NCBI RefSeq assembly: GCF_004571065.1 | Contig: NZ_SPQN01000044.1 | Coordinates: forward strand, 1-37,330 | Length of the DNA: 37,330 nt | Direction: 5' to 3' | From: Geodermatophilus sp. DF01-2 | Lineage (GTDB): Bacteria; Actinomycetota; Actinomycetes; Mycobacteriales; Geodermatophilaceae | Shown here: positions 525-20,794 of the stretch, one piece after another | Layout: each line of letters opens with the position of its first letter | How positions within the stretch are numbered: position 1 is the stretch's first letter | The notes under the pieces: generated by a model | Seen by the model: the letters and a program-made list of their open reading frames with translations, nothing else | What the model was told of the DNA's origin: nothing | The model's database searches: none | Made by a program: the position numbers and the translations under genes

Positions 525-2183
525 TCAGTGGCCCCGGAACGCCTCCGCGAGCCACCACGACGGCTCGTCGGCGGCCACCTTCGCGTCGACGAGCAGCGGT
601 GCGTCCCGAGTGCCTCCCGCCCATCCGGCGACCCATTCGGCCACCGCGGCGAGGTCCCCGGGCGCGCGCACGGTCACCGCCGCGAAGCCGTGGCCGCGGG
701 CGATCGCCGCGAAGTCGGTCTCCGGGAAGCGGACGGTGTCCAGCGGATGCCCGTCGGGGCCGAAGTGGTGCATCTCGGCGCCGTACGCCGCGTCGTCGTA
801 GACGACGACCACCATGGGCAGACCCAGCCGGACGACGGTCTCCAGCTCCGCCGCGCCCATGAGCGCGCCGCCGTCGCCGAGCGCGGCCACCGGGAGCCGG
901 TCCGGCCGGGCCAGCGCCGCACCGATCGCCGTGGCCAGTCCGAGCCCGACCGACTGGAACGCCTGGGTGAAGCAGAACCCGTGCTCGTCGGGGACGTCGA
1001 GGAACATGCTCGGGTAGCCCATGAAGTTGCCCGAGTCGACGGCGACCACCCGCTCGGCCGGCAGCAGGTCGTCCAGCGCGATGGTGAGGGTGCGCGGGTC
1101 GATCCGGTCCGGCCCCCCGGTGGGGCTGAACGGCACGTCGCGCCAGCGCACCCGCGCCGCGATCGCCGAACGCACCTCCGCCGACCGGTAGCCCGGGACG
1201 GCGCCCTCGCCGAGCGTGGCCGCCACGGCCTCCGCCGTCCGCCGGACGTCGCCCACCACCCCGATGGCGACGTCACGGTGGACCCCGATGGCCGACGGGT
1301 CGTCGTCGACCTGGACGACGACGGCGTCGGCGGCGAGCAGCCGGCCGTGCCGCATCGTCCACATGTTCAGCGCGCAGCCCCAGCCCACCACCAGGTCGGC
1401 GCCGCCGATCAGCTCGGCGGCCAGCGGGGAGGCGAAGCCGCCGGAGACGTCCAGCGACCAGGGGTTGCCCGCGAAGAGTCCCTTGGCCACGGCGGAGGTG
1501 GACAGCAGCGCGCCACACCGCTCGGCGAGCACTTCCAGCGCGGCGCGCGCCCCGGGCCCGCGGGCGCCCCGGCCGGCGACGAAGACCGGACGCCGTGCGT
1601 GCCGCAGCGCGGCCGCCAGCCGCTGCACTCCCTCGACCGCGAGCGCCGGCTGCGGCGGCACCGGCACCGCCGGCGGGCCCGGCGGCACCGGCAGCTCGTC
1701 GACCTGCACGTCCAGCGGCAGGTTGAGCAGCACGGTGCGCCGCCCGTGGACGGCGGTGCCGACGGCGGCGGCCACCTGGTCGAGCGCGTCGCCGGCGGAG
1801 GTGACCCGCATCGGCACCGCGCCCACCGCGGCGGCCAGTGCCGCCTGGTCGACGGCGAAGTTGGACAGCCGCGAGCTCGCCTCGGCGGCCAGCACGACCA
1901 GCGGCGTCCGGCTCTTGGCCGCCTCGGCGATCCCGGTCAGCGCGTTGGTCAGCCCACAGCCCTGGTGCACGGAGAGCGCGGTCGGCCGCCCGCTCGTCCG
2001 GGCGTACGCGTCGGCCATCGTCGCCGCACCACCCTCGTGGCGGGCGGCGACGAACCGAGCCCCGGCGGCGACCATGGCGTTGGTGACGGCGAAGTTGCCC
2101 GAGCCGACGACACCGAACGCGGTGTCGACGCCGCAGCCGACCAGCGCCGTGCCGACCGCCTCGGCGACGCCGGTGCGCCTCAT
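525..2183 (-). CDS. Thiamine diphosphate-dependent enzyme (acetolactate synthase / benzoylformate decarboxylase superfamily)
   Basis: 552 residues with the three-domain layout of the superfamily. The N-terminal pyrimidine-binding domain carries the activating glutamate (Glu50 in 'HEGGAA'), the middle domain is Rossmann-like (about 190-330), and the C-terminal domain binds diphosphate. The cofactor motif begins with GDG at 436-438 but ends in 'YDDAAYG' (462-468), so the usual Asn-Asn pair is Asp-Asp. No FAD-binding or small-subunit signal of true acetolactate synthase was noted. The reaction is probably decarboxylation or ligation of a 2-oxo acid; the substrate is not visible. The start ATG overlaps the stop of the upstream cyclase gene by four bases (ATGA), so the two are translationally coupled and probably act in one pathway. 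Confidence 0.85.
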   Translation of the reverse strand: MRRTGVAEAVGTALVGCGVDTAFGVVGSGNFAVTNAMVAAGARFVAARHEGGAATMADAYARTSGRPTALSVHQGCGLTNALTGIAEAAKSRTPLVVLAAEASSRLSNFAVDQAALAAAVGAVPMRVTSAGDALDQVAAAVGTAVHGRRTVLLNLPLDVQVDELPVPPGPPAVPVPPQPALAVEGVQRLAAALRHARRPVFVAGRGARGPGARAALEVLAERCGALLSTSAVAKGLFAGNPWSLDVSGGFASPLAAELIGGADLVVGWGCALNMWTMRHGRLLAADAVVVQVDDDPSAIGVHRDVAIGVVGDVRRTAEAVAATLGEGAVPGYRSAEVRSAIAARVRWRDVPFSPTGGPDRIDPRTLTIALDDLLPAERVVAVDSGNFMGYPSMFLDVPDEHGFCFTQAFQSVGLGLATAIGAALARPDRLPVAALGDGGALMGAAELETVVRLGLPMVVVVYDDAAYGAEMHHFGPDGHPLDTVRFPETDFAAIARGHGFAAVTVRAPGDLAAVAEWVAGWAGGTRDAPLLVDAKVAADEPSWWLAEAFRGH

Positions 2184-2956
2184 CCCCGTTCCACCAGGGC
2201 GAGCACCCGGGCCGGCGAGCCGGAGCCTGCGACGATCGGCAGCGGCGCGGCGAGCAACACCGCGCCGGTGGGCGGCAGCAGCGCCAGGTTCTGCAGCTGG
2301 GTGAGCCCGTACTTGCCGCTGCCCATGAGCGCCGCGTGGCACGGGAACGGCGGGTCGAAGGAGTGCGCGGCGCCGGCGTCGGTGCCGACGGTCTCCACGC
2401 CGAGGCCGATCACCGGCGCCTCCTCGGCCAGCCAGCGGGCGCACTCGGGGGAGATGCCCGGCGTGTGCGGTCCGGCCTCGTCGGCGTTGAGGAACTGCTC
2501 CTGGGAGTCGGTGCGGGCGTCCCAGCCGGTGCGGTAGAGCAGCCAACCGCCGTCGGGCAGCGGGCCGTGCTCGGCCTCCCACGCCCGCACGTGGTGGACC
2601 TCGAGCAGGAAGTCGGGGTCGGCCGCGGCCTCGGCGGAGAGGTCCAGGACGGCGGCCGGGGCGACGAGCCGGGCGGCCGGGACGGAGGCGACGTCGTCGC
2701 CGTCGGCGCCGGTCACCCAGTGGTTGGGCGCGTCGAAGTGCGTGCCGGTGTGCTCCCCGGTGCGGAAGTTGTTCCAGTACCAGGCCGGGCCGCGGTCGTC
2801 GTACCGGCTGAGCTCCTCCAGCTCGAAGGGGGCGGTCTGGGCGAACTGCGGCGGGAGCGCGATGACCGGGGTCTGCGCCGACAGCGGGGCCGTGAGGTCG
2901 ACGACCTCGATGCCGCCGCCGGTCAGCGCGGCGGCGAACGCGGACAGGGGCGACAT
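2180..2956 (-). CDS. Cyclase family protein (kynurenine formamidase-like metal hydrolase)
   Basis: 258 residues. It carries the family's metal-binding signature 'HTGTHFDAPNHW' at residues 69-80, where the histidines and Asp75 bind metal. Members hydrolyse amide bonds such as N-formylkynurenine or lactone-like bonds. The ATG at 2956 is preceded by GGAGG on the minus strand at good spacing. It is the first gene of a two-gene operon with the TPP-dependent enzyme, with which it overlaps by four bases. No signal peptide is visible, so it is cytoplasmic. True kynurenine formamidase is possible, but there are no other tryptophan-catabolism genes nearby. Family certain, substrate unknown. Confidence 0.85.
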   Translation of the reverse strand: MSPLSAFAAALTGGGIEVVDLTAPLSAQTPVIALPPQFAQTAPFELEELSRYDDRGPAWYWNNFRTGEHTGTHFDAPNHWVTGADGDDVASVPAARLVAPAAVLDLSAEAAADPDFLLEVHHVRAWEAEHGPLPDGGWLLYRTGWDARTDSQEQFLNADEAGPHTPGISPECARWLAEEAPVIGLGVETVGTDAGAAHSFDPPFPCHAALMGSGKYGLTQLQNLALLPPTGAVLLAAPLPIVAGSGSPARVLALVERG

Positions 2957-3015
2957 CGGCGGGTCCTCCACGGAGCTCGGGGGGTGCGGTCCGGAGAGCA
3001 TGCCGCACGCCCAGG

Positions 3016-7899: not shown

Positions 7900-9102
7900 T
7901 CAAGTGGCCGCGTTCCCCGCGTCCAGACCGGCGAGCCACCGGCGGATCTCCGCGCCGTGCTCGTCGACGTCCGGAGGCGGCAGCCGGTAGCTGGGCCGGC
8001 TCTCCGAGAACCGGATCGGGTTGCGGACCGTCGGGACGGCCGCCGTCCCCTCTCCCGCGGCGACCACCGGGTCCAGACCCACCTCCTCGGCGAAGGCGAC
8101 GCCCTGGTCGACGGTGTTGATCGGGCCGCAGGGCACGCCGGCGCCTACGATGTCGCGGAACCACTCGAGCTTGCCGCGGGTGCGCAGCCGGGCGGCCAGC
8201 AACGGCCGCAGCTCCTCGCGGTGCACCGTGCGGTCGACGTTGCGGGCGAAGCGCGGGTCGTCGGCGAGCTCCGGTGCGCCGAGCACCTCGCACAGCCGGC
8301 GGAACTGGGCGTCGTTGCCGGCCGCGACGATGAGGTCCCCGTCGGCGCAGGGGAAGGGCTCGTACGGGTAGAGGCTGGGGTGGCCGTTGCCCATCCGGAA
8401 CGGGACGACGCCGCCGGCGACGTACGCGCTGGTCTGGTTGACCAGCCCGGAGAGGGCCGAGGAGAGCAGGTCGACCTCGACGTGCTGGCCGCGCCCGGTC
8501 TCCCGCCGCACGTGCAGCGCGGACAGGACGCCGATGGCGGCGTGCAGCCCGGCGATGACGTCGAACACGGCCACGCCGGCGCGGTAGGGCTCGCCGCCCG
8601 GGTCGCCGGTGAGGCTCATCATCCCGGAGATCGCCTGGACGATGAGGTCGTAGCCGGGCAGCGCCGCACCCTTCGGCCCGCTGCCGAACCCGCTGATCGA
8701 GGCGTAGACGACCCCCGGGTTGGTGGCCGCCACGGTGTCGAAGTCCAGGCCGAAGCGGTCCAGGCCGCCGGGCTTGAAGTTCTCGACGAGCACGTCGGCG
8801 CGGCGGGCCAGCTCCCGGGCGGCCGCGACGTCGGCCGGGTCGGCCAGGTCCAGCGCGACCGACCGCTTGTTGCGGTTGATCGCCAGGTAGTAGGTCGAGA
8901 CCCCGTCGCGCACCGGCGGCTGCCAGGTGCGGGTGTCGTCGCCCCGGGGCGCCTCGACCTTGACCACCTCGGCGCCGAGGTCGGCCAGCAGCATCGTCGC
9001 GTAGGGGCCGGCGAGGACCCGGGAGAAATCGGCCACCAGCAGGCCGGCCAACGGACCCTGCGGCGCCCTCCCGGCCTCGTCGCCGGTCGGCCGGTCGGTC
9101 AC
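7900..9102 (-). CDS. CaiB/BaiF family (class III) CoA-transferase
   Basis: 400 residues, the usual length. Enzymes of this family move CoA between an acyl-CoA donor and a free carboxylic acid. Features: 'LAGLLVADFSRVLAGPYATM' at the N-terminus, the substrate loop 'AINRNKRSVALDL', and the catalytic aspartate at about Asp152 in 'GYDLIVQAISGMM', as in formyl-CoA transferase. The GTG start overlaps the stop of the enoyl-CoA hydratase gene by four bases. It is the last gene of a three-gene operon. With the presence of a hydratase and a racemase, it probably activates or trades CoA on a carboxylic acid intermediate. The substrate is unknown. Confidence 0.88.
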   Translation of the reverse strand: MTDRPTGDEAGRAPQGPLAGLLVADFSRVLAGPYATMLLADLGAEVVKVEAPRGDDTRTWQPPVRDGVSTYYLAINRNKRSVALDLADPADVAAARELARRADVLVENFKPGGLDRFGLDFDTVAATNPGVVYASISGFGSGPKGAALPGYDLIVQAISGMMSLTGDPGGEPYRAGVAVFDVIAGLHAAIGVLSALHVRRETGRGQHVEVDLLSSALSGLVNQTSAYVAGGVVPFRMGNGHPSLYPYEPFPCADGDLIVAAGNDAQFRRLCEVLGAPELADDPRFARNVDRTVHREELRPLLAARLRTRGKLEWFRDIVGAGVPCGPINTVDQGVAFAEEVGLDPVVAAGEGTAAVPTVRNPIRFSESRPSYRLPPPDVDEHGAEIRRWLAGLDAGNAAT

Positions 9103-9863
9103 CGGCCGCGCCAGACCGGGGAGCGCTTCTCCGCGAAGGCCGCCGCGCCCTCACGGGCGTCCTCGCTGGCGAAGACCGGCCCGACCAGCTCGGCCTGCCG
9201 GGCCCAGCCCTCCGTGGTCGTCCAGTCGGCGCTGCCGCGGACCACCGCCTTGGTCGCGGCCAGCGCGAGCGGGCCGTTGGCGGCCACGGTCGCGGCCAGC
9301 GAGAGCGCGCCGTCCAGCGCTCCACCCTCCGGGGTGAGCCGGTTGACCAGCCCGACGTCCGCGGCCCGCCGCGCGTCGAGCGGGTCGCCGGTGAGCAGCA
9401 TCTCCATCGCCACGTTGGCCGGCACCCGCCGCGGCAGCAGCAGCGCGCCCCCGCCGGCGGCGACCAGGGACCGCTTCACCTCGGGCACCCCGAAGCGCGC
9501 CGTCCCGGCGGCCACCACCAGGTCGCAGGCGAGCACCAGCTCGAAGCCGCCGGCCAGCGCCCACCCCTCGACGGCGGCGACGAGCGGCTTGCGCGGCGGG
9601 GCCTGGGTGATGCCGCACAGCCCGCGGCCCTCGATCGACGGGGACTCCCCGCGCAGGAAGGCCTTGAGGTCCATGCCGGCGGAGAAGGTGCCACCGGCGC
9701 CGGTGAGGACGCCGACCCGCAACTCGTCGTCGGCGTCGAGCTCGTCGACCGCCGCGGCCACTGCCTCCGCGACCGTCCGGTTCAGGGCGTTCTTCGCCGC
9801 CGGCCGGTTGATCGTCACCACGAGGACGCTCTCGCGCCGCTCGACCAGTACCTCGTCGCTCAC
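9099..9863 (-). CDS. Enoyl-CoA hydratase/isomerase (crotonase) family protein
   Basis: 254 residues, a typical length. It hydrates or isomerises enoyl-CoA esters. Oxyanion-hole parts are visible: 'NRPAAKNALN' and 'FSAGMDLKAF', and the second loop 'WALAGGFELVLACDLVVAA'. A conserved glutamate is present in 'FGVPEVKRSLVAAGGG', corresponding to the first crotonase glutamate. The GTG start overlaps the racemase stop and its own stop overlaps the CoA-transferase start, so it is the middle gene of a tightly coupled operon. The exact reaction (hydration, isomerisation or another) is not decided by sequence alone. Confidence 0.88.
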   Translation of the reverse strand: MSDEVLVERRESVLVVTINRPAAKNALNRTVAEAVAAAVDELDADDELRVGVLTGAGGTFSAGMDLKAFLRGESPSIEGRGLCGITQAPPRKPLVAAVEGWALAGGFELVLACDLVVAAGTARFGVPEVKRSLVAAGGGALLLPRRVPANVAMEMLLTGDPLDARRAADVGLVNRLTPEGGALDGALSLAATVAANGPLALAATKAVVRGSADWTTTEGWARQAELVGPVFASEDAREGAAAFAEKRSPVWRGR

Positions 9864-11035
9864 CGGGTCCCCTCTCGTGTTCGGTCGGTCTGGACGACGG
9901 CGCCGGACTCCAGCAGCGCGGCCAGCTCGTCGTCGTCGAAGCCCCACGCCGCCAGCGCCGCGCGGGTGTCCTGACCGGCCGCGCGCGGCGCTCCGCGGAC
10001 CGCTCCCGGGGTGCGGGAGAACCGCGGCGCCGGGGCCGGCTCCGGGTGCCCCCCGCGGTCGGTGAAGGTGCCGCGGGCGGCCAGGTGCGGATGCTCCGGC
10101 GCCTCGGTCAGCCCGAGCACCGGCGTCACGCACGCGTCGGTGCCGGCGAAGGAGCGGGCCCACTCGTCGCGGGTGCGGGTGGCGAACGCGGCGGCGATCC
10201 GCGCCCGCTGCTGCGGCCACCGGGCGACGTCCAGCTGCGGGCCGTGCTCGTCGGCGTCGATGTCCAGGCCCGCGAGCAGCTGGGCGTGGAACTGCGGCTC
10301 GATCGCGCCGACGGCGACGTGCCGGCCGTCGGCGCAGGCGTAGGTGCCGTAGAAGGGGGCGGCGCCGTCGAGCAGGTTGGCCGCCCGCCGGTCCTGCCAC
10401 AGCCCCGCGCCGAGCATCCCGTAGACCATCGTGACCAGGGAACTGGCGCCGTCGACCATCGCGGCGTCGACGACCTGGCCGCGCCCGCTGGTGCCCCGCT
10501 CCAGCAGCGCGGCGAGGACGCCGACGACGAGGAACAGCGAGCCGCCGCCGAAGTCGGCGCCGATGTTCAGCGGCGGGATCGGCGCCTCCGCCGTCCCGAT
10601 GGCGTGCAGGGCGCCGGTGAGCCCGAGGTAGTTGATGTCGTGGCCGGCCCGGTCGGCCAGCGGGCCGTCCTGGCCCCAGCCGGTCATCCGCGCGTAGACC
10701 AGCCGCGGGTTGCGGGCCAGGCAGTCGTCGGGCCCGACGCCGAGCCGCTCGGTGACGCCGGGGCGCAGCCCCTCGACCAGCACGTCCGCGGACTCCGCCA
10801 GCCGGAGGACGACGTCGCGGCCGGCGGGGCTCTTGAGGTCGACGGCGACCGACGGACGGCTGCGGCCCAGCGCGTCGTCCTCGGGCGCGACCAGCGCGGT
10901 GCCGCCGCCGGGGCGGTCCACCCGGACCACGTCGGCACCCAGCTCGGCCAGCAGCAGGCAGGCGTAGGGGGCGGGGCCCAGCCCGGCCAGTTCGACGACG
11001 CGGATCCCCGCGAGGGGGCCGGAGGGCGGCAGCAC
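9860..11035 (-). CDS. Alpha-methylacyl-CoA racemase-like protein (CaiB superfamily)
   Basis: 391 residues from the GTG at 11035. It interconverts 2R- and 2S-methyl branched acyl-CoA by proton removal and return. It differs from the downstream CoA-transferase in having the racemase catalytic pair: the histidine in 'AGHDINYLGLTG' (His132) and an aspartate in 'PPLNIGADFGGGSLFLV' (Asp161), matching the known His/Asp of mycobacterial Mcr. It is the first gene of the racemase-hydratase-CoA-transferase operon and divergent from maoC, with 61 bases between the starts. A racemase implies 2-methyl-branched substrates. Confidence 0.85.
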   Translation of the reverse strand: MLPPSGPLAGIRVVELAGLGPAPYACLLLAELGADVVRVDRPGGGTALVAPEDDALGRSRPSVAVDLKSPAGRDVVLRLAESADVLVEGLRPGVTERLGVGPDDCLARNPRLVYARMTGWGQDGPLADRAGHDINYLGLTGALHAIGTAEAPIPPLNIGADFGGGSLFLVVGVLAALLERGTSGRGQVVDAAMVDGASSLVTMVYGMLGAGLWQDRRAANLLDGAAPFYGTYACADGRHVAVGAIEPQFHAQLLAGLDIDADEHGPQLDVARWPQQRARIAAAFATRTRDEWARSFAGTDACVTPVLGLTEAPEHPHLAARGTFTDRGGHPEPAPAPRFSRTPGAVRGAPRAAGQDTRAALAAWGFDDDELAALLESGAVVQTDRTREGTR

Positions 11036-11096
11036 CCTGGCACCGTAACGCCGCGTGTCCGGGCGTCGGCAACACGGCTGCCCTACGGTCGGCGTG

Positions 11097-11549
11097 GTGA
11101 GCGAACGCTGGTTCGACGACTACGTCCCGGGCACGACCGCCGAGTACGGCCCCCTGCGGGTGGAGGAGGCCGACGTCGTCGACTTCGGCCGCCGGTTCGA
11201 CCCGCAGCCCTTCCACGTCGACGCCGAGGCGGCGGCCGCCGGCCCGTTCGGCGGGCTCGTCGCCAGCGGCTGGCACACCTGCGCCCTGATGATGCGGCTG
11301 CTGGCCGACGAGTACCTCTCGCCGGTCTCCAGCCTCGGCTCCCCCGGCGTCGACGAGCTGCGCTGGGTCGCGCCGGTGCGGCCGGGCGACGAGCTCACCC
11401 TGCGGACGACGGTCGCCGAGGCGCGGCCGTCGCGGTCCAAGCCCGACCGCGGGCTGGTCCGCACGCGCGTCGAGCTGCTGCGGCAGGACGGCGCCGTCGT
11501 CCTCACCATGACCGCGATGAACCTGGTCCGCACCCACCCGACCGCGTAG
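11097..11549 (+). CDS. MaoC family (R)-specific enoyl-CoA hydratase
   Basis: 150 residues, hot-dog fold, usual length. The hydratase-2 motif is clear: 'FDPQPFHVDAEAA' gives the catalytic Asp35 and His40, followed by 'GPFGGLVASGWHT'. The product would be an (R)-3-hydroxyacyl-CoA. The GTG at 11097 was chosen because the domain begins there ('SERWFDDYVPG'). No ribosome site precedes it, but TACGGT (11084-11089) sits at -10 distance, so a leaderless mRNA is possible. An earlier in-frame GTG at 11055 would add 14 atypical residues. The acyl-CoA ligase follows after 8 bases, forming one operon. Confidence 0.87.
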   Translation: MSERWFDDYVPGTTAEYGPLRVEEADVVDFGRRFDPQPFHVDAEAAAAGPFGGLVASGWHTCALMMRLLADEYLSPVSSLGSPGVDELRWVAPVRPGDELTLRTTVAEARPSRSKPDRGLVRTRVELLRQDGAVVLTMTAMNLVRTHPTA

Positions 11550-11557
11550 GAGGAGCG

Positions 11558-13096
11558 ATGCCCTGGCCCGGCGCGACCGCGCGCACCGACCCCGACGAGC
11601 CGGCACTGATCATGGCCGGCTCCGGCGCGACGCTCACCTACGCCGACCTCGAGGAACGCTCCACCCGGCTGGCCTCGTGGCTGCGGGCGCAGGGGCTGCG
11701 GCGGGGGGACGTCGTGGCGCTCCTGACCGACAACCGGCTCGAGGTCTCGGAGGTCTACTGGGCCTGCCAGCGGGCGGGGCTGTACGTCACCGCGGTCAAC
11801 CGGCACCTCGCCCCTACCGAGGCGGCCTACGTGGCCGCGGACAGCGGCGCCCGGGTCCTCGTGGCCGCGGCGACGCTGGCCCCGCTGGCGGAGGAGGTGC
11901 GGGCCGCCGTCCCGGCGATCGGGTCCGCCCTGGCCGTGGGCGGGTCGATCGAGGGCTTCGGGAAGTACTCCGCCGCGCTGGCCGCCGGCGACCCGGTGCC
12001 CTCGGCCGACCAGCCCCGCGGCGCGGACCTGCTCTACAGCTCGGGCACGACCGGCCGGCCCAAGGGCATCCGCCCGCCGCTGCCCGACCGGCAGGTGACC
12101 GAGCCCGGCGACAGCCTGGTCGCGGTGTTCGGCACCCGCTACGGGTTCGGCGCGGACACCGTCTACCTCTCTCCCGCGCCGGCCTACCACGCGGCGCCGC
12201 TGCGGTTCGTCGGCGTCGTGCAGGCCACCGGTGGCACGGTCGTGATGATGGAGTCCTTCGACGCCGAGGCGGCGCTGGCGGCCATCGAGCGGTACCGGGT
12301 CACGCACAGCCAATGGGTGCCGACGATGTTCGTGCGGATGCTCAAGCTGCCGCCGGAGGTGCGGGCCCGCTACGACGTGTCCAGCCTGCGCGTCGCCGTC
12401 CACGCCGCGGCGCCGTGCCCGCCGGAGGTCAAGCGGGCCATGATCGACTGGTGGGGCCCGGTGCTCGAGGAGTACTACGCCTCGACCGAGAGCGCCGGCA
12501 TCACGATGGTCGGCAGCGAGGAGTGGCTCGCCCGCCCGGGCACGGTCGGCCGCGACGGCTTCCTCGGCACCGTCCACGTCGTGGGCGACGACGGGCGCGA
12601 CCTCCCGCCGGGCGAGGTGGGTGTCGTCTACTTCGAGCGCGAGACCATGCCCTTCGCCTACCTCAACGACCCGGCGCGGACGGCGGAGGCCCAGCACCCC
12701 GACCACCCGACCTGGTCGACCGTCGGCGACATGGGCTACCTCGACGAGGACCGCTACCTGTACCTCACCGACCGGCAGTCCAACACGATCATCTCCGGTG
12801 GGGTCAACATCTACCCGCGCGAGGCCGAGGACGTCCTGGCCCTGCACCCGGCGGTGCACGACGTCGCGGTGATCGGCGTCCCCGACGAGGAGATGGGCGA
12901 GTCGGTGCTCGCGCTCGTCCAGCCCGCACCGGGCGCGGCGACCGCGGGCCTGCCGGCCGAGCTGGTGGCCTACACCCGCGAGCGGCTCAGCCACTACAAG
13001 TGCCCCGCCCGGGTGGAGCTGGTCGACGAGCTGCCGCGCACGCCCACCGGGAAGCTGCAGAAGCACCTGCTCCGCCGCCGCTACGCGCCGTCCTGA
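11558..13096 (+). CDS. Acyl-CoA ligase (AMP-forming), fatty-acid CoA synthetase family
   Basis: 512 residues. It activates a carboxylic acid with ATP and CoA through an acyl-adenylate. The ANL-superfamily motifs are all present: 'YSSGTTGRPKG' (150-160), 'YYASTE', 'STVGDMGYLDED', 'LTDRQSNTIISGGVNIYPRE' and the catalytic lysine of the C-terminal motif 'PTGKLQK' (about Lys499). The ATG has a good site, GGAGGAG, that overlaps the end of maoC. Substrate range cannot be read from sequence. Its place beside racemase, hydratases and a B12 mutase suggests a branched or modified short-to-medium-chain acid. It ends 37 bases before the convergent BtuF-like gene. Confidence 0.92.
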   Translation: MPWPGATARTDPDEPALIMAGSGATLTYADLEERSTRLASWLRAQGLRRGDVVALLTDNRLEVSEVYWACQRAGLYVTAVNRHLAPTEAAYVAADSGARVLVAAATLAPLAEEVRAAVPAIGSALAVGGSIEGFGKYSAALAAGDPVPSADQPRGADLLYSSGTTGRPKGIRPPLPDRQVTEPGDSLVAVFGTRYGFGADTVYLSPAPAYHAAPLRFVGVVQATGGTVVMMESFDAEAALAAIERYRVTHSQWVPTMFVRMLKLPPEVRARYDVSSLRVAVHAAAPCPPEVKRAMIDWWGPVLEEYYASTESAGITMVGSEEWLARPGTVGRDGFLGTVHVVGDDGRDLPPGEVGVVYFERETMPFAYLNDPARTAEAQHPDHPTWSTVGDMGYLDEDRYLYLTDRQSNTIISGGVNIYPREAEDVLALHPAVHDVAVIGVPDEEMGESVLALVQPAPGAATAGLPAELVAYTRERLSHYKCPARVELVDELPRTPTGKLQKHLLRRRYAPS

Positions 13097-13133: not shown

Positions 13134-13910
13134 TCAACGGTCGGAGCCGGCGGGTCGCCCGATCGCGTCGAGCAGCCGCCGGCGGGCCGGGCCGAGCGAG
13201 GGGCCGTACCAGGTGAGGTCGCGGCCGGAGACCAGCGCGGCCCGGATGCCGGGGAACGCCTCCGGGCCGTCGTCCGCGGTGAAGACGTACGGCTCGTCGG
13301 GGAGGACGACGACGTCCGGGGCGGTGCCGGTGATCTCGTCGACGTCGACCTTCGGGTACCGGTCGGGGTGCTGCGCGAAGACGTTGACCAGACCGAGGCG
13401 GGCCAGCACGTCGCCGGTGAAGGTGCGCGGGCCGACGACCATCCACGGGTCGCGCCAGACCGGGACGGCGACCCGCAGGCCGGGACCGGGCTGGGTCACC
13501 GGCCGCCCCCACTCCGCCGCGGCCTCGGCCAGCCACCCCGGCTCCCCCACGCCGAGCACCTCACCGAACAGCCGCCGCATCGACGCGATCGCCTCGTCGA
13601 CCGACTCGATGACGGTCACCCACACCGGCACCCCGGCCGCGCGCAGCCGGTCGACGTCCAGCCGCCGGTTCTCCTCCCGGTTGGCCACGACGAGGTCGGG
13701 CTCGAGCGCCTCGATCGCCGCCCGGTCGGGGTTCTTCGTGCCGCGCACGCGGGGCACGCCGAGGTCGGCCGGGTGGGTGCACCAGTCGGTGGCGCCGACC
13801 AGGCGGTCGGGCACGCTGACCGCCAGCGCCTCGGTGAGCGAGGGCACCAGCGAGACCACCCGCCGCGGCGGCCGCGGCAGCTCGACGTCCGTGCCCAGGT
13901 CGTCCTTCAC
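13134..13910 (-). CDS. BtuF-like helical-backbone metal/cobalamin receptor without signal peptide
   Basis: 258 residues, of the fold used by BtuF and iron-siderophore binding proteins. Seen: 'PPRRVVSLVPSLTEAL' at the N-terminus, 'GATDWCTHPADLG', a middle 'LEPDLVVANREENRR', and the second lobe 'FTGDVLARLGLVNVF' with 'PDVVVLPDEPYVFT'. BtuF carries B12 in the periplasm or cell surface for an ABC importer. Here no signal peptide or lipobox is present and no permease gene is adjacent. The GTG start overlaps the stop of the B12-dependent mutase by four bases. That coupling suggests a cytoplasmic role in cobalamin supply to the mutase, which is an inference. A truncated or misannotated start is unlikely because the frame upstream is icmF antiframe. 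Confidence 0.8.
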   Translation of the reverse strand: MKDDLGTDVELPRPPRRVVSLVPSLTEALAVSVPDRLVGATDWCTHPADLGVPRVRGTKNPDRAAIEALEPDLVVANREENRRLDVDRLRAAGVPVWVTVIESVDEAIASMRRLFGEVLGVGEPGWLAEAAAEWGRPVTQPGPGLRVAVPVWRDPWMVVGPRTFTGDVLARLGLVNVFAQHPDRYPKVDVDEITGTAPDVVVLPDEPYVFTADDGPEAFPGIRAALVSGRDLTWYGPSLGPARRRLLDAIGRPAGSDR

Positions 13911-16900
13911 ACGTTGCGCCGGTACTGGCCGCCCACCTCGAAGAACGCGTCGGAGATCTGCCCGAGGGAGCAGACCCGGACGGCGTCCATCAGCTCGGCG
14001 AAGACGTTGCCGCCCTCGGTGGCCGCCCGCTGCAGCGCGGCGAGCGCGGCCGGGGCTGCGTCGGCGTGCCGGGCGGAGAAGTCGGCGAGCCGCTGCAGCT
14101 GGGACTGCTTCTCCGCCTCGGTCGCCCGCGCCAGCTCCAGCGGCTCGGGCGGGGTCTCCTCTCGGTTCGGGTCCAGGAAGGTGTTGACCCCGACGATCGG
14201 CAGGCTGCCGTCGTGCTTGCGGTGCTCGTAGAGCATCGACTCGTCCTGGATCTTGCCGCGCTGGTAGCCGGTCTCCATGGCCCCCAGCACGCCGCCGCGC
14301 TCGGCGATCCGGTCGAACTCGGCCAGCACCGCCTCCTCGACCAGGTCGGTGAGCTCCTCGGTGACGAACGAGCCCTGCAGCGGGTTCTCGTTGCCGGCCA
14401 GCCCCCACTCGCGGTCGATGATCATCTGGATGGCCAGGGCCCGGCGGACCGAGTGCTCGCTCGGGGTGGTCACCGCCTCGTCGTAGGCGTTGGTGTGCAG
14501 GCTGTTGGCGTTGTCGTAGATGGCGCAGAGGGCCTGCAGCGTCGTCCGGATGTCGTTGAAGTCCATCTCCTGCGCGTGCAGCGACCGGCCCGAGGTCTGC
14601 ACGTGGTACTTCAGCTGCTGCGAGCGGGCGCCCGCGCCGTAGCGCTCCCTCATCGCGACCGCCCAGATGCGGCGGGCGACGCGGCCGATCACCGAGTACT
14701 CGGCGTCCATGCCGTTGGAGAAGAAGAACGACAGGTTGGGCGCGAAGTCGTCGATCGCCATGCCGCGTGCCAGGTAGGACTCCACGTAGGTGAAGCCGTT
14801 GGCGAGGGTGAAGGCCAGCTGGCTGATCGGGTTCGCCCCGGCCTCGGCGATGTGGTAGCCCGAGATCGAGACCGAGTAGAAGTTGCGCACCTTGTGCTGG
14901 ATGAACCACTCCTGGATGTCGGCCATGCAGCGCAGCGCGAACTCGGTGGAGAAGATGCAGGTGTTCTGGCCCTGGTCCTCCTTGAGGATGTCGGCCTGCA
15001 CCGTGCCGCGGACGGTGGCCAGCACCCACGCGCGGACCTCCTCGGCCTCGGCGGCGTCGGGCTCGCGGCCCTCCTCCTCGCGGAACCGGTCCAGCCGCTG
15101 GTCGATCGCGGTGTTGAGGAACATCGCGAGGATCGCCGGCGCCGGGCCGTTGATGGTCATCGACACCGACGTCGTCGGGTCGCACAGGTCGAAGCCCCCG
15201 TAGAGCACCTCCATGTCCTCGAGCGTGGCGATGGAGACCCCGGACGTGCCGACCTTGCCGTAGACGTCCGGGCGCGGGTCGGGGTCGCGGCCGTAGAGGG
15301 TCACCGAGTCGAACGCCGTCGACAGCCGGGTCGCCTCGTTGCCGTGGCTGAGCATCTTGAAGCGGCGGTTGGTGCGGAAGGCGTCGCCCTCGCCGGCGAA
15401 CATCCGGGCCGGCGCCTCGCCGGACCGCTTGAACGGGAAGACCCCGGCGGTGAACGGGTAGGCGCCGGGCAGGTTCTCCCGCCGCAGGAAGCGCAGCAGC
15501 TCCGCCTCGTCCTGCGTGCGCGGCAGCGAGACCCGGCGGACCTTCGACCCCGAGAGCGTCTCGCGGGTCAGCGGCGTGCGGATCTCCTTGCCGCGCACCG
15601 TGTAGACGTACTCGTCGCTGGAGTACTGCTCGACCCGGGCCGGCCACTCCTCCAGCAGCTCGCGCACGTCGGGCCGCAGCTCGCGATCGGCCGCCTCGAC
15701 CGCGGCCCGGGCGGCCTCGGCGGCGTCCCCGTCCAGCACCTCGGCGGCCGTGCGCAGGTGCTGCCGGCGGCGGACCACGTCGGCCTGCGCCTCGGTGGTG
15801 GCGTGGTACCCCCGCACCGCCTCGGCGATCTCGGCCAGGTACCGCGACCGCTGCGCCGGCACCACGCTGGTCAGCCCGGACGACGCCCGCACGTCGACCC
15901 GCGGCAGGACGCCGGAGCCCGCGGGCAGGCCCTGCTCGATGAGCAGGCCGAGCAGGTGCTGGTAGAGCGCGGTCACGCCGTCGTCGTTGAACCGGGCGGC
16001 GCTGGTGCCGTAGACCGGCATCTGCTCCCAGGGCTGGCCGAAGGCCTCGCGGTTGCGCACCATCTGCCGGGCGACGTCGCGGCGGGCGTCCTCGGCCCCG
16101 CGCCGCTCGTATTTGTTGATCGCCACGACGTCGGCGAAGTCGAGCATGTCGATCTTCTCCAGCTGCGAGGCGGCGCCGAACTCCGGCGTCATCACGTACA
16201 GCGCGACGTCGCTGAACGGGATGATCCCGGCGTCGCCCTGCCCGATGCCCGGCGTCTCCACGATCACCAGGTCGAAGCCGGCCGCCTTCACCGCGCACAG
16301 CACGTCGTCCAGGTGCTCGGGCGTCTCCGCCCCGGCCGACCGGGTGGCCAGCGAGCGGAAAAAGGTGTGCGACCCCTCCCCGGCCTCCAGGGCGTTCATC
16401 CGAATCCGGTCGCCCAGCAGCGCCCCGCCGCCGCGGCGCCGGGTGGGGTCGATCGCCAGGACGGCGACCCGCAGCTTGTCCTCCTGGTCGGTCCGCAGCC
16501 GGCGCAGCAGCTCGTCGGTCAGCGAGGACTTGCCCGAGCCACCGGTGCCGGTGATGCCCAGCACCGGCACCGTCCGCGCGGCCGCCGCCTCCCGCACCCG
16601 CGCCGCGAGATCCGGGTCGCGGCCGGACTCCAGCACGGTGATGGCCCGGGCCAGCGCAGCCGGGTCGCCGGTCAGCAGCGCCTCGACGTCCGGGCCGTCC
16701 TCCGCCAGGTCGACGTCGCACTCCCGGACCAGCTCGTTGATCATCCCGGGCAGGCCGAGGCGCTGGCCGTCCTCCGGGCTGAAGATGCGGACGCCCTGCT
16801 CGCGCAGCGCGGCGATCTCCTCCGGCACGATCACGCCCCCGCCGCCACCGAACACCTTCACGTGCCCGGCGCCGGCCTCGGCCAGCCGCTCCACCAGGTA

Positions 16901-17149
16901 GCCGAAGTACTCGACGTGCCCGCCCTGGTAGGAGGAGATCGCCACCCCCTGTACGTCCTCCTCCAGCGCCGCCCGGACGACGGAGTCGACGCTGCGGTCG
17001 TGCCCGAGGTGCACCACCTCCGCGCCCTGGCTCTGCAGCAGCCGGCGCATCACGTTGATCGCGGCGTCGTGGCCGTCGAACAGGCTCGCCGCGGTCACGA
17101 AGCGCACCGGGTGGACGGGGACGTGCAGGTCGGACGGCTTGCCGGGCAT
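13907..17149 (-). CDS. icmF: Fused isobutyryl-CoA mutase IcmF (adenosylcobalamin-dependent)
   Basis: 1080 residues, normal for IcmF. It rearranges the carbon skeleton of isobutyryl-CoA to n-butyryl-CoA; some members act on isovaleryl/pivalyl-CoA. Domain order: B12-binding (about 10-140, lower ligand His27 in 'LFDGHDAAINVM'), MeaI-like GTPase chaperone with Walker A 'GTGGSGKSS' (201-209), linker, then the mutase TIM barrel. In the barrel, 'FTAGVFPFKR' has Phe and 'DQGQNTCIF' has Gln where methylmalonyl-CoA mutase has Tyr and Arg, as expected for a non-carboxylated substrate. The ATG at 17149 follows a GAGGGAG site. It is coupled to a BtuF-like gene downstream and is divergent from the acyl-CoA dehydrogenase. 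Confidence 0.95.
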   Translation of the reverse strand: MPGKPSDLHVPVHPVRFVTAASLFDGHDAAINVMRRLLQSQGAEVVHLGHDRSVDSVVRAALEEDVQGVAISSYQGGHVEYFGYLVERLAEAGAGHVKVFGGGGGVIVPEEIAALREQGVRIFSPEDGQRLGLPGMINELVRECDVDLAEDGPDVEALLTGDPAALARAITVLESGRDPDLAARVREAAAARTVPVLGITGTGGSGKSSLTDELLRRLRTDQEDKLRVAVLAIDPTRRRGGGALLGDRIRMNALEAGEGSHTFFRSLATRSAGAETPEHLDDVLCAVKAAGFDLVIVETPGIGQGDAGIIPFSDVALYVMTPEFGAASQLEKIDMLDFADVVAINKYERRGAEDARRDVARQMVRNREAFGQPWEQMPVYGTSAARFNDDGVTALYQHLLGLLIEQGLPAGSGVLPRVDVRASSGLTSVVPAQRSRYLAEIAEAVRGYHATTEAQADVVRRRQHLRTAAEVLDGDAAEAARAAVEAADRELRPDVRELLEEWPARVEQYSSDEYVYTVRGKEIRTPLTRETLSGSKVRRVSLPRTQDEAELLRFLRRENLPGAYPFTAGVFPFKRSGEAPARMFAGEGDAFRTNRRFKMLSHGNEATRLSTAFDSVTLYGRDPDPRPDVYGKVGTSGVSIATLEDMEVLYGGFDLCDPTTSVSMTINGPAPAILAMFLNTAIDQRLDRFREEEGREPDAAEAEEVRAWVLATVRGTVQADILKEDQGQNTCIFSTEFALRCMADIQEWFIQHKVRNFYSVSISGYHIAEAGANPISQLAFTLANGFTYVESYLARGMAIDDFAPNLSFFFSNGMDAEYSVIGRVARRIWAVAMRERYGAGARSQQLKYHVQTSGRSLHAQEMDFNDIRTTLQALCAIYDNANSLHTNAYDEAVTTPSEHSVRRALAIQMIIDREWGLAGNENPLQGSFVTEELTDLVEEAVLAEFDRIAERGGVLGAMETGYQRGKIQDESMLYEHRKHDGSLPIVGVNTFLDPNREETPPEPLELARATEAEKQSQLQRLADFSARHADAAPAALAALQRAATEGGNVFAELMDAVRVCSLGQISDAFFEVGGQYRRNV

Positions 17150-17355: not shown

Positions 17356-18612
17356 ATGGACCCCTCGCTCCCGCCGGCGCTGACCACCCTGCTCGACGAG
17401 CTCGACGGGTTCATCGCCGCGGAGATCGAGCCGCTGCAGCAGCAGGACGACAACGAGCGCTTCTTCGACCACCGGCGGGAGTTCGCCCGCACCGACGTGG
17501 AGCACGGCGGCGTCCCCCGCCCGGAGTGGGAGGAGCTGCTCGCCGAGGCCCGTCGACGGGCCGACGCGGCGGGCTGGCTCCGCTACAGCCTCCCTGCCGA
17601 GCTCGGTGGGCGGGACGGCACGAACCTGGACATGGCCGTGGTCCGCGAGCACCTGGCGCACCGGGGGCTGGGCCTGCACAACGACCTGCAGAACGAGCAC
17701 AGCGTCGTCGGGAACCTGGTCCTCCCCCACCTGGTGCACCTGTTCGGCACGCCGGGGCAGAAGGAGGAGCTCGTCGAGCCGCTGATCACCGGCCGGCGGG
17801 GGCTGGCCTTCGGCCTGACCGAACCCGACCACGGCAGCGACGCGACCTGGATGGAGACCACCGCCGTCCGCCGCGACGGCGACTGGGTGATCTCCGGGCG
17901 CAAGCGGTGGAACACCGGCGTGCACTCGGCCAGCCACGACCTGGTGTTCGCCCGTACCTCCGGACAGCCGGGCGACGCCCGCGGCATCACCGCGTTCCTC
18001 GTGCCGACCGACAGCCCCGGTTTCTCGGTGCCGTTCTTCTGGTGGACGCTCAACATGCCTTCCGACCACGGCGAGGTGGAGCTCGACGGCGTCCGGGTGC
18101 CGGACTCGGCGGTGTTCGGCGAGGAGGGTGAGGGCCTGGCGGTCGCGCAGACCTTCCTGCACGAGAACCGCATCCGGCAGGCCGCCTCCGGGGTGGGCGC
18201 GGCCCAGTACTGCATCGACCGGTCGGTCGAGCACGCGCGGTCGCGGATCACCTTCGGCAGACCGCTGGCCGAACGGCAGGCGATCCAGTGGCCGCTGGTC
18301 GAGCTGCACACCGAGGCCGAGCTGGTGCGCACGCTGATCCGCACGACCGCCGTCGAGCTGGACCGGTCATCCGCACATGGGGAGCCTGCGGTGTCCATCG
18401 GCCACAAGGTCTCGATGTGCAACTACCGCGGCAACCGGCTGGTGTGCGACGCCGCCGACCGCGCCATGCAGGTGCACGGTGGCATGGGGTACTCGCGGCA
18501 CCTGCCGTTCGAGCACATCTACCGCCACCACCGCCGGTACCGGATCACCGAGGGGGCCGAGGAGATCCAGATGCGCCGGGTGGCCGGGCAGCTGTTCGGC
18601 TTCCTGAGGTGA
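17356..18612 (+). CDS. Acyl-CoA dehydrogenase family protein (ACAD10/11- or LvaC-like context)
   Basis: 418 residues, the normal length for a flavin-dependent acyl-CoA dehydrogenase. It shows the FAD/substrate motif 'GLAFGLTEPDHGSDATWMET', the middle beta domain, and the C-terminal helices with 'MQVHGGMGYSRHLPFEHIYR' and 'ITEGAEEIQMRRVAG', in which Glu399 occupies the catalytic-base position. The ATG at 17356 follows GGAAGGA at good distance. Its stop overlaps the start of the kinase-DUF6285 gene. ACADs coupled to this type of kinase (ACAD10/11 in animals, LvaC in Pseudomonas) act on 4-phosphorylated acyl-CoA, so elimination of phosphate rather than simple desaturation is a real option here. 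Confidence 0.9.
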   Translation: MDPSLPPALTTLLDELDGFIAAEIEPLQQQDDNERFFDHRREFARTDVEHGGVPRPEWEELLAEARRRADAAGWLRYSLPAELGGRDGTNLDMAVVREHLAHRGLGLHNDLQNEHSVVGNLVLPHLVHLFGTPGQKEELVEPLITGRRGLAFGLTEPDHGSDATWMETTAVRRDGDWVISGRKRWNTGVHSASHDLVFARTSGQPGDARGITAFLVPTDSPGFSVPFFWWTLNMPSDHGEVELDGVRVPDSAVFGEEGEGLAVAQTFLHENRIRQAASGVGAAQYCIDRSVEHARSRITFGRPLAERQAIQWPLVELHTEAELVRTLIRTTAVELDRSSAHGEPAVSIGHKVSMCNYRGNRLVCDAADRAMQVHGGMGYSRHLPFEHIYRHHRRYRITEGAEEIQMRRVAGQLFGFLR

Positions 18613-19991
18613 GCAGACCGGCGTCCTCCCCGGCGGAGGCCGCGCTGGCGGCGGGGCTCGAGCGGCGACTGACCGCGCTGGCCGGCGGGCCGGTGCGCGT
18701 CGAGGGCCTCACCCGGCTCACCGGCGGCGCCAGCCGGCAGACCTGGGCGCTCACCGCGGTCGACACCGGCGGCGGCCGGCGCGACCTGGTGCTGCGCAGC
18801 GGCGCCGGCACCGGCGGGGTGGAGCTCCCGGTGGAGGGCGCGGCGATCGCCGCCGCGGCGCGCGCCGGAGTGCCGGTGGCCGACGTGCTCGACGTCGGCC
18901 GCGGCTCCGGCGAGGACGGACTCCCCCCGGCGTACCTGCTCATGGCCCGGGTGGACGGCGAGACGATCCCGCGGCGGCTGCTCCGCGACGCGGAGTTCGC
19001 CGCGGTCCGGCCGCGGCTGGTGCACGAACTGGCCGGGGTGCTCGCCCGGCTGCACGCCGTGCCGCTCGAGGAGCTCGACCGCGTGCCGGTGGGCGGGGAC
19101 CCGCTCGACCGGCTGGCCACCGTCCACGGCGGCGACGAGCCGCCCCCGCCCGGCCTGGCGCTCGGGCTGCGCTGGCTCCGGGAGAACCGGCCGGAGCCGG
19201 CACCGGAGACCCTCGTGCACGGCGACTTCCGGCTGGGCAACCTGATGATCGGCCCGGACGGGCTGCGCGCCGTCCTCGACTGGGAGCTGGTCCACCGCGG
19301 GGACCCGCTGGAGGACCTCGGCTGGTTCTGCGCCAAGGTCTGGCGGTTCGGCTCGCCGCTGCCGGCCGGGGGCTTCGGTACCCGCGAGCAGCTGCTCGAC
19401 GGCTACGCGGAGGCGGCCGGGTGGCGACCGAGCGCCGCGCAGCTGCACTGGTGGGAGCTGTACGCCACCGTGCAGTGGGGGCTGATGACCCGCGTCATGA
19501 CCGAGCGGCACCTGTCCGGCGTGGAGCCGTCGGTGGAGCTGGCCGCCATCGGGCGGCGCGCCGGCGAGCAGGAGTTCGACGTCCTGCTGTCGCTGGGGCT
19601 GGCCGAGCCGGAGCCGGTCCCCGGCCTGCCCGGGGAGGACGACGACCTGCTGTTCGGCCGGCCCACGGCGGCCGAGCTCGCCGACGCCGTGGCGAGCTTC
19701 CTCACCGCCGACGTCCGGGCCGGGACCGGAGGCCGGACCGCGTTCCTCGCGCGGGTGGCGGCCAACGTGCTGGCGACCGTGCGGCGGGAGCTGCTGCTCG
19801 GGCCCGACGCGCGGATCCGGCGGCGGACAGCCCTGGACCGGCTGGGCTGCCGGGACGACGCGGCGCTGGCCGACGCGATCACCACGGGCGCGCTCGACGA
19901 CCGGTGGGACGAGGTGGTGTCCGTCGTCCGTGAGGGGGTGCGGGACCGCCTGCTCGTGGCCAACCCGCGACACCTGTCGCTACCGGCCTGA
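18609..19991 (+). CDS. Phosphotransferase (APH fold) fused to a DUF6285 domain; LvaA-LvaB-like
   Basis: 460 residues. The first 320 or so form an aminoglycoside-phosphotransferase/choline-kinase fold with the catalytic loop 'LVHGDFRLGNLMI' and the metal-binding 'VLDWELVHRGDPLEDLGW'. The last 120 or so, from 'ELADAVASFLTADVRAG' through 'FLARVAANVLATVRREL' to 'LLVANPRHL', match DUF6285 as remembered. In Pseudomonas putida, LvaA (APH fold) needs the small protein LvaB to phosphorylate 4-hydroxyvaleryl-CoA. Here kinase and small domain are one chain, translationally coupled (GTGA) to an acyl-CoA dehydrogenase. It is very unlikely to be an antibiotic-resistance enzyme. The equivalence of DUF6285 with LvaB is my inference. 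Confidence 0.85.
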   Translation: MSRPASSPAEAALAAGLERRLTALAGGPVRVEGLTRLTGGASRQTWALTAVDTGGGRRDLVLRSGAGTGGVELPVEGAAIAAAARAGVPVADVLDVGRGSGEDGLPPAYLLMARVDGETIPRRLLRDAEFAAVRPRLVHELAGVLARLHAVPLEELDRVPVGGDPLDRLATVHGGDEPPPPGLALGLRWLRENRPEPAPETLVHGDFRLGNLMIGPDGLRAVLDWELVHRGDPLEDLGWFCAKVWRFGSPLPAGGFGTREQLLDGYAEAAGWRPSAAQLHWWELYATVQWGLMTRVMTERHLSGVEPSVELAAIGRRAGEQEFDVLLSLGLAEPEPVPGLPGEDDDLLFGRPTAAELADAVASFLTADVRAGTGGRTAFLARVAANVLATVRRELLLGPDARIRRRTALDRLGCRDDAALADAITTGALDDRWDEVVSVVREGVRDRLLVANPRHLSLPA

Positions 19992-20244
19992 GGGTTCGAT
20001 CGGACGCGGTGCCGGACGACCCACCGCGCGGCGATGACGGTCCGCTGGATCTCGTCGGTGCCCTCGCCCGTGACGCGGGCGAAGCGGGCGGTGCTCACGT
20101 CGCTGCGACCGTGCTCCTCGGGCACCAGCAGGCCGAAGCAGCCGAGGGCCTTCATCTCCTCGATGACGTCCTCGGGTAGCGGTCGGCGGCCTCGAACTCG
20201 GCCACCCGCGGGCGCACCCGCTCGTCGTCGGTCAGCGTCGGCAT
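19992..20244 (-). pseudogene. Acyl-CoA dehydrogenase remnant, frameshifted with large internal deletion
   Basis: From the ATG at 20244 (minus) the first residues 'MPTLTDDERVRPRVAEFEAA' resemble an acyl-CoA dehydrogenase N-terminus. A frameshift near 20170 leads into 'EDVIEEMKALGCFGLLVPEE', the usual following helix. After 'HGRSDVS' the sequence jumps to 'TARFARVTGEGTDEIQRTVI', the very C-terminal helix with its EGTDEIQ signature. About 300 residues between are missing. It reaches the stop of the kinase gene on the other strand. It cannot make a working enzyme. The remaining ends show it was a separate dehydrogenase from the intact one at 17356. Confidence 0.8.
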
Positions 20245-20257
20245 GTGGGCTCCCTGG

Positions 20258-20794
20258 TCAGTGCGGCGGTGCGGGTGGGCCGTCGTCGGTGTCGTCGCCG
20301 AGCGGTCGCTGGTACCAGGCGACGTCGTGCCAGCGGCCGAGCTTCCAGCCCACCCGGCGGTAGGTGCCCACCGGCTCGAACCCCATCGCCGTGTGCAGGC
20401 CGACGCTGGCCTCGTTGGGCAGCCCGATGCCGGCGAGGGCCGTCCGATAGCCGCGGGCGGCGAGCCGGTCGAGCAGCGCGGTGTAGAGGGCACGGCCGGC
20501 GCCGGTGCGGCGGCGGCCGGTCTCGGTGTACACGCTGACCGACGTCGACCAGCGGTAGGCGGCGCGGGCGTTGAACGTCGCCCCGTACGCGTACCCGGCG
20601 ACCCGGCCGGCGTCCTCGGCGACCAGCCAGGCGTGCGTGGCGAGGGCGGCCCCGATCCGCCCGGCCATCTCCGCGACGGTCGGCGGCTCGAGCTCGAAGG
20701 AGACCACGGTGTCGCGGACGTACGGGGCGTAGATCTCCTGACACCGCGCGGCGTCCTCGCGGGTCGCGTCCCTGACCAGCCAGCCGGTTGCCAC
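20258..20794 (-). CDS. GNAT acetyltransferase, phosphinothricin N-acetyltransferase-like
   Basis: 178 residues from a GTG. It transfers acetyl from acetyl-CoA to an amine. The N-terminal 'RDATREDAARCQEIYAPYV' and 'VVSFELEPPTVAEMAGRI' are typical of the phosphinothricin/methionine sulfoximine acetyltransferase branch. The acetyl-CoA loop is 'RRRTGAGRALYTALLDRL', and 'GIGLPNEASVGLHTAMGFE' closes the fold. In most bacteria these proteins acetylate methionine sulfoximine-like or unknown amines; resistance to phosphinothricin is not implied. The start codon has only a weak ribosome site (GGATGG). No operon partner is evident; the next gene upstream on the same strand begins 25 bases away. Confidence 0.85.
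   Translation of the reverse strand: MATGWLVRDATREDAARCQEIYAPYVRDTVVSFELEPPTVAEMAGRIGAALATHAWLVAEDAGRVAGYAYGATFNARAAYRWSTSVSVYTETGRRRTGAGRALYTALLDRLAARGYRTALAGIGLPNEASVGLHTAMGFEPVGTYRRVGWKLGRWHDVAWYQRPLGDDTDDGPPAPPH

Follow-up and report, generated by a model that had tools for sequence, protein, structure and literature searches.

A fused LvaA-LvaB-type kinase and its overlapping acyl-CoA dehydrogenase gene in Geodermatophilus

The gene pair and the fused kinase

The DNA analyzed here, referred to as the window, is a stretch of 37,330 nucleotides from Geodermatophilus sp. DF01-2 (contig NZ_SPQN01000044.1). Its forward strand carries two overlapping genes. The upstream gene (17356..18612) encodes an acyl-CoA dehydrogenase (ACAD) of 418 amino acids, a complete enzyme by its matches to the Pfam families PF00441 (E 5.8e-41), PF02770 (E 1.3e-20) and PF02771 (E 1.7e-9), and a member of the group that we refer to as class b. 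The downstream gene (18609..19991) has a GTG start and encodes a protein of 460 amino acids, in which a kinase domain of the APH family (residues 34-272, i.e., 18708..19424; E 2.2e-29) precedes a DUF6285 domain (PF19802, residues 373-454; E 5.7e-20). The latter match scores 72.2 bits, against a curated Pfam cut-off of 28.1, and thus confirms an earlier interpretation made from the DNA alone (hereafter, the sequence-only reading), which had assigned the C-terminus of the kinase to this family. It is the single DUF6285 match at an E-value of 0.001 in the window's genome (4.45 Mb, 99.7% complete). In NCBIfam, neither protein gave any family above cut-off.

The four-base overlap noted in the same reading is the GTGA at 18609..18612, common to both frames, which joins the stop of the ACAD gene to the start of the kinase gene. 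Of 25 ACAD-kinase pairs that are adjacent on one strand, this one counted and both ACAD classes included, 21 have an in-frame NTGA overlap of start and stop (six of these pairs were assigned to the LvaC/ACAD11 type from the locus listing, a literal motif test having missed them). Because the overlap recurs in this manner, it is more than a product of chance, and the two genes are probably translationally coupled through it.

The catalytic set of APH kinases can be recognized by alignment, namely H204 and D206 of the HxD motif, N211, and the metal-binding D224. In the predicted structure of the kinase (predicted local distance difference test score, pLDDT, 93.9), the C-terminal domain comprises the helices of residues 354-457 (19668..19979), close to the limits of 335-455 proposed from the sequence. 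In Pseudomonas putida, LvaB binds the kinase LvaA and is required for growth on levulinate, according to excerpts of the published account (PMC6692424). The supposition that DUF6285 is equivalent to LvaB is borne out by two comparisons. The LvaB annotated among the lva genes of a Pseudomonas plasmid itself matches PF19802 (E 4.8e-24, 85.3 bits), and profile alignment with hhalign joins 13 fused C-terminal domains both to a five-row set of standalone DUF6285 proteins (99.7%) and to that plasmid LvaB alone (96.8%, E 2.1e-10, 106 columns). The window kinase is thus an LvaA-LvaB fusion in one chain. Since Pfam already places LvaB in DUF6285, this equivalence was latent in the databases. In a kinase tree, the window kinase and LvaA fall on one side and three ACAD11-like kinases on the other, with a support of 100 in the Shimodaira-Hasegawa-like approximate likelihood ratio test (SH-aLRT) and with long-branch warnings for LvaA; the two proteins are 37% identical in a three-row alignment.

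Among the sequences of the PDB, LvaB as query found no convincing relative (five rows up to E 1, the best at E 0.014), a profile of the fused domains found nothing at E 0.1, and the standalone DUF6285 profile returned one row only (2zbk, E 0.045). The ACAD11 kinase is absent from the 50 rows listed as structurally similar to the kinase model (residues 5-334 only), which excludes nothing. In the library searched, no paper names DUF6285, and the relevant papers among those listed for LvaA or LvaB concern levulinate metabolism; titles and the beginnings of abstracts revealed no work on the fused kinase or on a partner ACAD of the Glu type.

Class b dehydrogenases and their association with the kinase

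The sequence-only reading had ascribed to the coupled ACAD the chemistry of LvaC and of animal ACAD10/11. In ACAD11, the residues D753, R626, H634 and R637 (mouse numbering) have been shown to matter, as described in excerpts of the corresponding report (PMC12440821). Alignment of the window ACAD places E399, F267, Q275 and S278 at these positions; that is, the catalytic Asp is replaced by Glu and the R/H/R phosphate site, recognized by the HCMR motif, is missing. The proposed chemistry is therefore not supported. The same replacements characterize class b as a whole. The catalytic position is Glu in 22/22 class b rows and Asp in 15/15 rows of the LvaC/ACAD11 type. None of the three residues of the phosphate site is found in 11/11 class b rows, and all three are found in 15/15 LvaC/ACAD11-type rows, so that all four signature residues differ in each of the 11 class b rows, window included. 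In the window ACAD, the class b signature reads HENRIRQAAS (269-278) and RRYRITEGAEE (393-403). In ACADs of the short/medium-chain type, a Glu at the position of E399 is the catalytic base. In a quickly computed ACAD tree, class b forms a separate clade (support 100) outside the LvaC/ACAD11 clade, and joins the latter together with L058, a Glu-type ACAD of the window's own genome, at a support of 96. By sequence, class b is a separate, conserved ACAD clade.

A survey of 298 genomes of the host's order identified DUF6285 in 68 and a class b ACAD in 63. Both are present in 62 genomes and neither in 229; 6 genomes have DUF6285 without class b, and 1 has class b without DUF6285 (Fisher p 8e-56, shared ancestry ignored). 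The class b clade thus tracks DUF6285 across the order. In the host genus, 5 of 12 genomes contain both and 7 contain neither.

The fusion is not unique, and other relatives keep the same three genes separate. In a set of 30 short loci (L006-L035), DUF6285 is fused to the kinase in 11 and lies outside the kinase frame in 19, and the ACAD is upstream of the kinase in 27 (17 separate, 10 fused). The fusion thus joins genes that were already adjacent. A scan with a ten-row alignment of fused kinases yielded at least 588 relatives, the best 80 of which, together with the window, form a set of 81 rows. Fused kinases account for 72 of these rows, nearly all actinobacterial. The earlier description of the locus as a third arrangement of the lva and ACAD10/11 genes is thus right as to its form, but the arrangement is widespread. 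When the 81 rows are sorted by the nearest ACAD, 30 fused kinases are partnered by class b and 17 by the LvaC/ACAD11 type, and 25 have neither in the flank; the remaining 9 are unfused, two of which (L155 and L159) stop at a contig end, with no DUF6285 seen. Class b sits at a gene position that true LvaC-type ACADs hold in other genera, next to the same kinase family. Across the kinase tree, the partner class switches at least five times, although strongly supported branches force only one such change; fusion state changes twice.

Several of these loci contain two kinases within a few genes, one fused and one ACAD11-like (L088, L100; L092, L094, L145, L149; L101, L112, L151). L088 and L100 combine the two kinases with both ACAD classes, as if one pathway treats two hydroxyl positions. 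In Nonomuraea gerenzanensis (L005), an unfused kinase and an LvaC-type ACAD form a pair, and the DUF6285 gene is located about 5.6 kb away from the kinase.

Among the closest known counterparts is the lva operon of the P. putida type, in which an APH-fold kinase is likewise followed by DUF6285 and adjoined by an ACAD. There, however, LvaA and LvaB are two proteins, and the ACAD follows LvaB instead of preceding the kinase and is of the other class. A complete lva-type levulinate operon is found on the Pseudomonas aeruginosa megaplasmid p12939-PER (L002), the plasmid mentioned above. It encodes a prpR-like regulator, a phosphotransferase, LvaB, an ACAD, a dehydrogenase recorded as glucose 1-dehydrogenase, which we take by analogy with LvaD to be of the short-chain dehydrogenase/reductase type, an acyl-CoA synthetase, a DUF485 protein and an acetate symporter. 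This gene set is the one given for the P. putida lva genes in excerpts of PMC6692424. Animal ACAD10 and ACAD11 also join a kinase and an ACAD of one pathway, in one chain rather than in overlapping genes, but their ACAD has the catalytic Asp and the HCMR motif, and the excerpts available on them mention no DUF6285. ACAD11-like bacterial kinases form a branch separate from the window kinase. In Nocardia, Rhodococcus and Streptomyces (e.g., L125, L141, L107), fused kinases are coupled to LvaC-type ACADs; these pairs share the kinase family and the NTGA overlap with the window, but their ACADs carry the Asp and the R/H/R site. A plasmid cluster of Thermus brockianus (L003) has the same gene order, unfused, but with an LvaC-type ACAD and an additional phosphatase gene. 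The latter encodes a histidine phosphatase immediately after DUF6285 (L003:6258-6899); according to excerpts of PMC6692424, P. citronellolis likewise has a histidine phosphatase in its lva cluster, in which no lvaB was found.

Proposed reactions and alternatives

We favor, with somewhat less than even confidence, the view that the pair consists of a hydroxyacyl-CoA kinase and a coupled dehydrogenase that handles the product of the kinase with a different active site. Its observed basis is homology, the fusion, the gene overlap, the co-occurrence and the residue differences; the substrate, the order of the steps, the polar residues facing the substrate and the dehydrogenase reaction are what we infer. 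In this scheme, the two-protein module would feed hydroxylated acyl-CoAs into beta-oxidation via a phosphorylated intermediate. The kinase would most likely phosphorylate the hydroxyl of a hydroxyacyl-CoA with ATP, with the 4-position as the most likely site. The class b ACAD would most likely take the phosphoacyl-CoA next, as LvaC does, using E399 as a canonical Glu base and polar residues specific to the clade (N271, R274, Q275, H108, D110, Q112 and E114) in place of the Asp and R/H/R. This step may be a second solution to phosphate removal, or a dehydrogenation of the phosphoacyl-CoA. More tentatively, class b might represent an undescribed second kind of ACAD, one that acts on phosphorylated hydroxyacyl-CoAs through a Glu base and a polar pocket of the pattern N-R-x-R-Q / H-D-Q-E rather than through Asp and HCMR. 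It would alternate with LvaC-type enzymes as the partner of a single kinase family in Actinomycetota, and might serve another hydroxyl position or a substrate derived from a ring.

A number of observations weigh against this view. Along with the four replaced signature residues, the class b stem is long in the ACAD tree (1.49), and L058, at 86, is a closer neighbour of the LvaC/ACAD11 clade than class b is. The Glu is canonical for ACADs of the short/medium-chain type and, together with the ACAD domains, suits an ordinary dehydrogenase. In a Foldseek search with the ACAD model, short-chain ACADs rank first and ACAD11 is not in the top 50, which excludes nothing; ACAD11 tops one of the two structure lists for this model, in a tie. 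Pairwise BLASTP finds no match between the C-terminal domain of the window kinase and LvaB (E 43). Of the 80 loci, 25 have a fused kinase with neither ACAD class in the flank, some of them cut by contig ends, and at least 7 (L088, L091, L100, L105, L109, L120, L166) have both classes in one flank, in a listing that shows two ACADs per locus. Finally, an HCMR-like motif is present in 63/63 class b genomes, and in 266/298 genomes overall (lists compared by eye; the pattern also permits A, G, S or W for C, and a reversed-pattern control matches 6 genomes). Thus, another enzyme could remove the phosphate in these hosts. For the same reason, the idea that a host without LvaC-type enzymes would prove phosphate removal by class b was rejected.

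The main alternative is a division of labour: class b would catalyze ordinary alpha,beta-dehydrogenation in an upstream or downstream step of the same pathway, passing electrons to electron-transfer flavoprotein (ETF), and the phosphate would be removed by an LvaC/ACAD11-type enzyme encoded elsewhere. We consider this explanation nearly as likely as the one we favor. The canonical Glu, the missing R/H/R site, the HCMR-like motifs of all class b genomes and the loci with both ACAD classes speak for it, as does the window's genome, which encodes two HCMR/Asp ACAD11-like dehydrogenases (L168:6035-7246 and L169:6519-7844) and one ACAD11-like kinase (L170:8818-9831) in three unlinked places; the module is therefore an addition to an ACAD11-type set and not a replacement. 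On the other hand, HCMR-like motifs are so nearly universal in the order that their presence is uninformative, and in the host genus they are no more numerous where the module is present (1 or 2 hits in each of 5 genomes) than where it is absent (1 or 2 hits in each of 7). That class b fills the position of LvaC-type ACADs also argues against this explanation.

It is improbable that the kinase targets another alcohol, for instance a tertiary hydroxyl or one on a steroid side chain, and that the pathway is an ATP-dependent dehydration with no relation to 4-hydroxyacyl-CoA. The 25-hydroxysteroid kinase of Sterolibacterium has the APH fold and phosphorylates a hydroxyl in such a dehydration, and fold ties cannot separate substrates. 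Its substrate, however, is a steroid tertiary alcohol, and excerpts of the work on it mention no CoA ester and neither an ACAD nor a DUF6285 partner, whereas the window kinase groups with LvaA and carries an LvaB-type domain. Least probable is the sequence-only reading in unchanged form, i.e., a rearranged kinase and LvaC-equivalent ACAD with the same Asp/HCMR chemistry: the gene coupling, the LvaA-LvaB-type kinase and the structural similarity to ACAD11 agree with it, but the residues of the active site and the separate clade do not.

Should class b ACADs act on phosphoacyl-CoAs, there would be two ways of removing the phosphate, and a search for this chemistry by the HCMR/Asp rule would overlook a large actinobacterial group. 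Otherwise, the kinase is coupled to a reaction other than the one assumed. The natural LvaA-LvaB fusions provide a single chain for probing the role of LvaB.

Genomic surroundings

In several Pseudonocardiaceae loci, the module is accompanied by a cyclase-family hydrolase, a gluconolactonase-like SGL protein and an ACAD11-like APH kinase (Pfam, one representative per cluster), as well as TetR regulators, acyl-CoA ligases and crotonases (labels assigned by eye). Loci of Nocardia, Rhodococcus and Actinomadura combine it with a CoA transferase and with SnoaL-like, glyoxalase-fold and CMD proteins (Pfam, again by representatives). Such neighbourhoods suit the catabolism of hydroxy acids or lactones; neither the window nor this context fixes the substrate.

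The window also encodes, at some distance from the module (7900-13096), an AMP-binding ligase, MaoC, an enoyl-CoA hydratase and two CoA transferases. Divergent from the module, the reverse strand at 13134-17149 carries a gene for an IcmF-type fused acyl-CoA mutase (B12-binding, MeaB and mutase domains) that overlaps a periplasmic-binding-protein-like gene. IcmF (13907-17149) was considered as a part of the module and rejected, being shared by 0/20 related 12-kb loci of the first clustering. Further away (525-2971, reverse strand), a thiamine-diphosphate enzyme and a cyclase-family hydrolase are encoded by overlapping genes; the same Pfam cyclase family adjoins the module in Pseudonocardia. The reverse strand at 19985-20260 holds a remnant, identified by eye, of another acyl-CoA dehydrogenase gene, in which an N-terminal scrap (VAEFEAADRYP.., MKALGCFGLLVPEEHG) directly meets a C-terminal scrap (STARFARVTGEGTDEIQR); the intervening part is lost and the frame changes.
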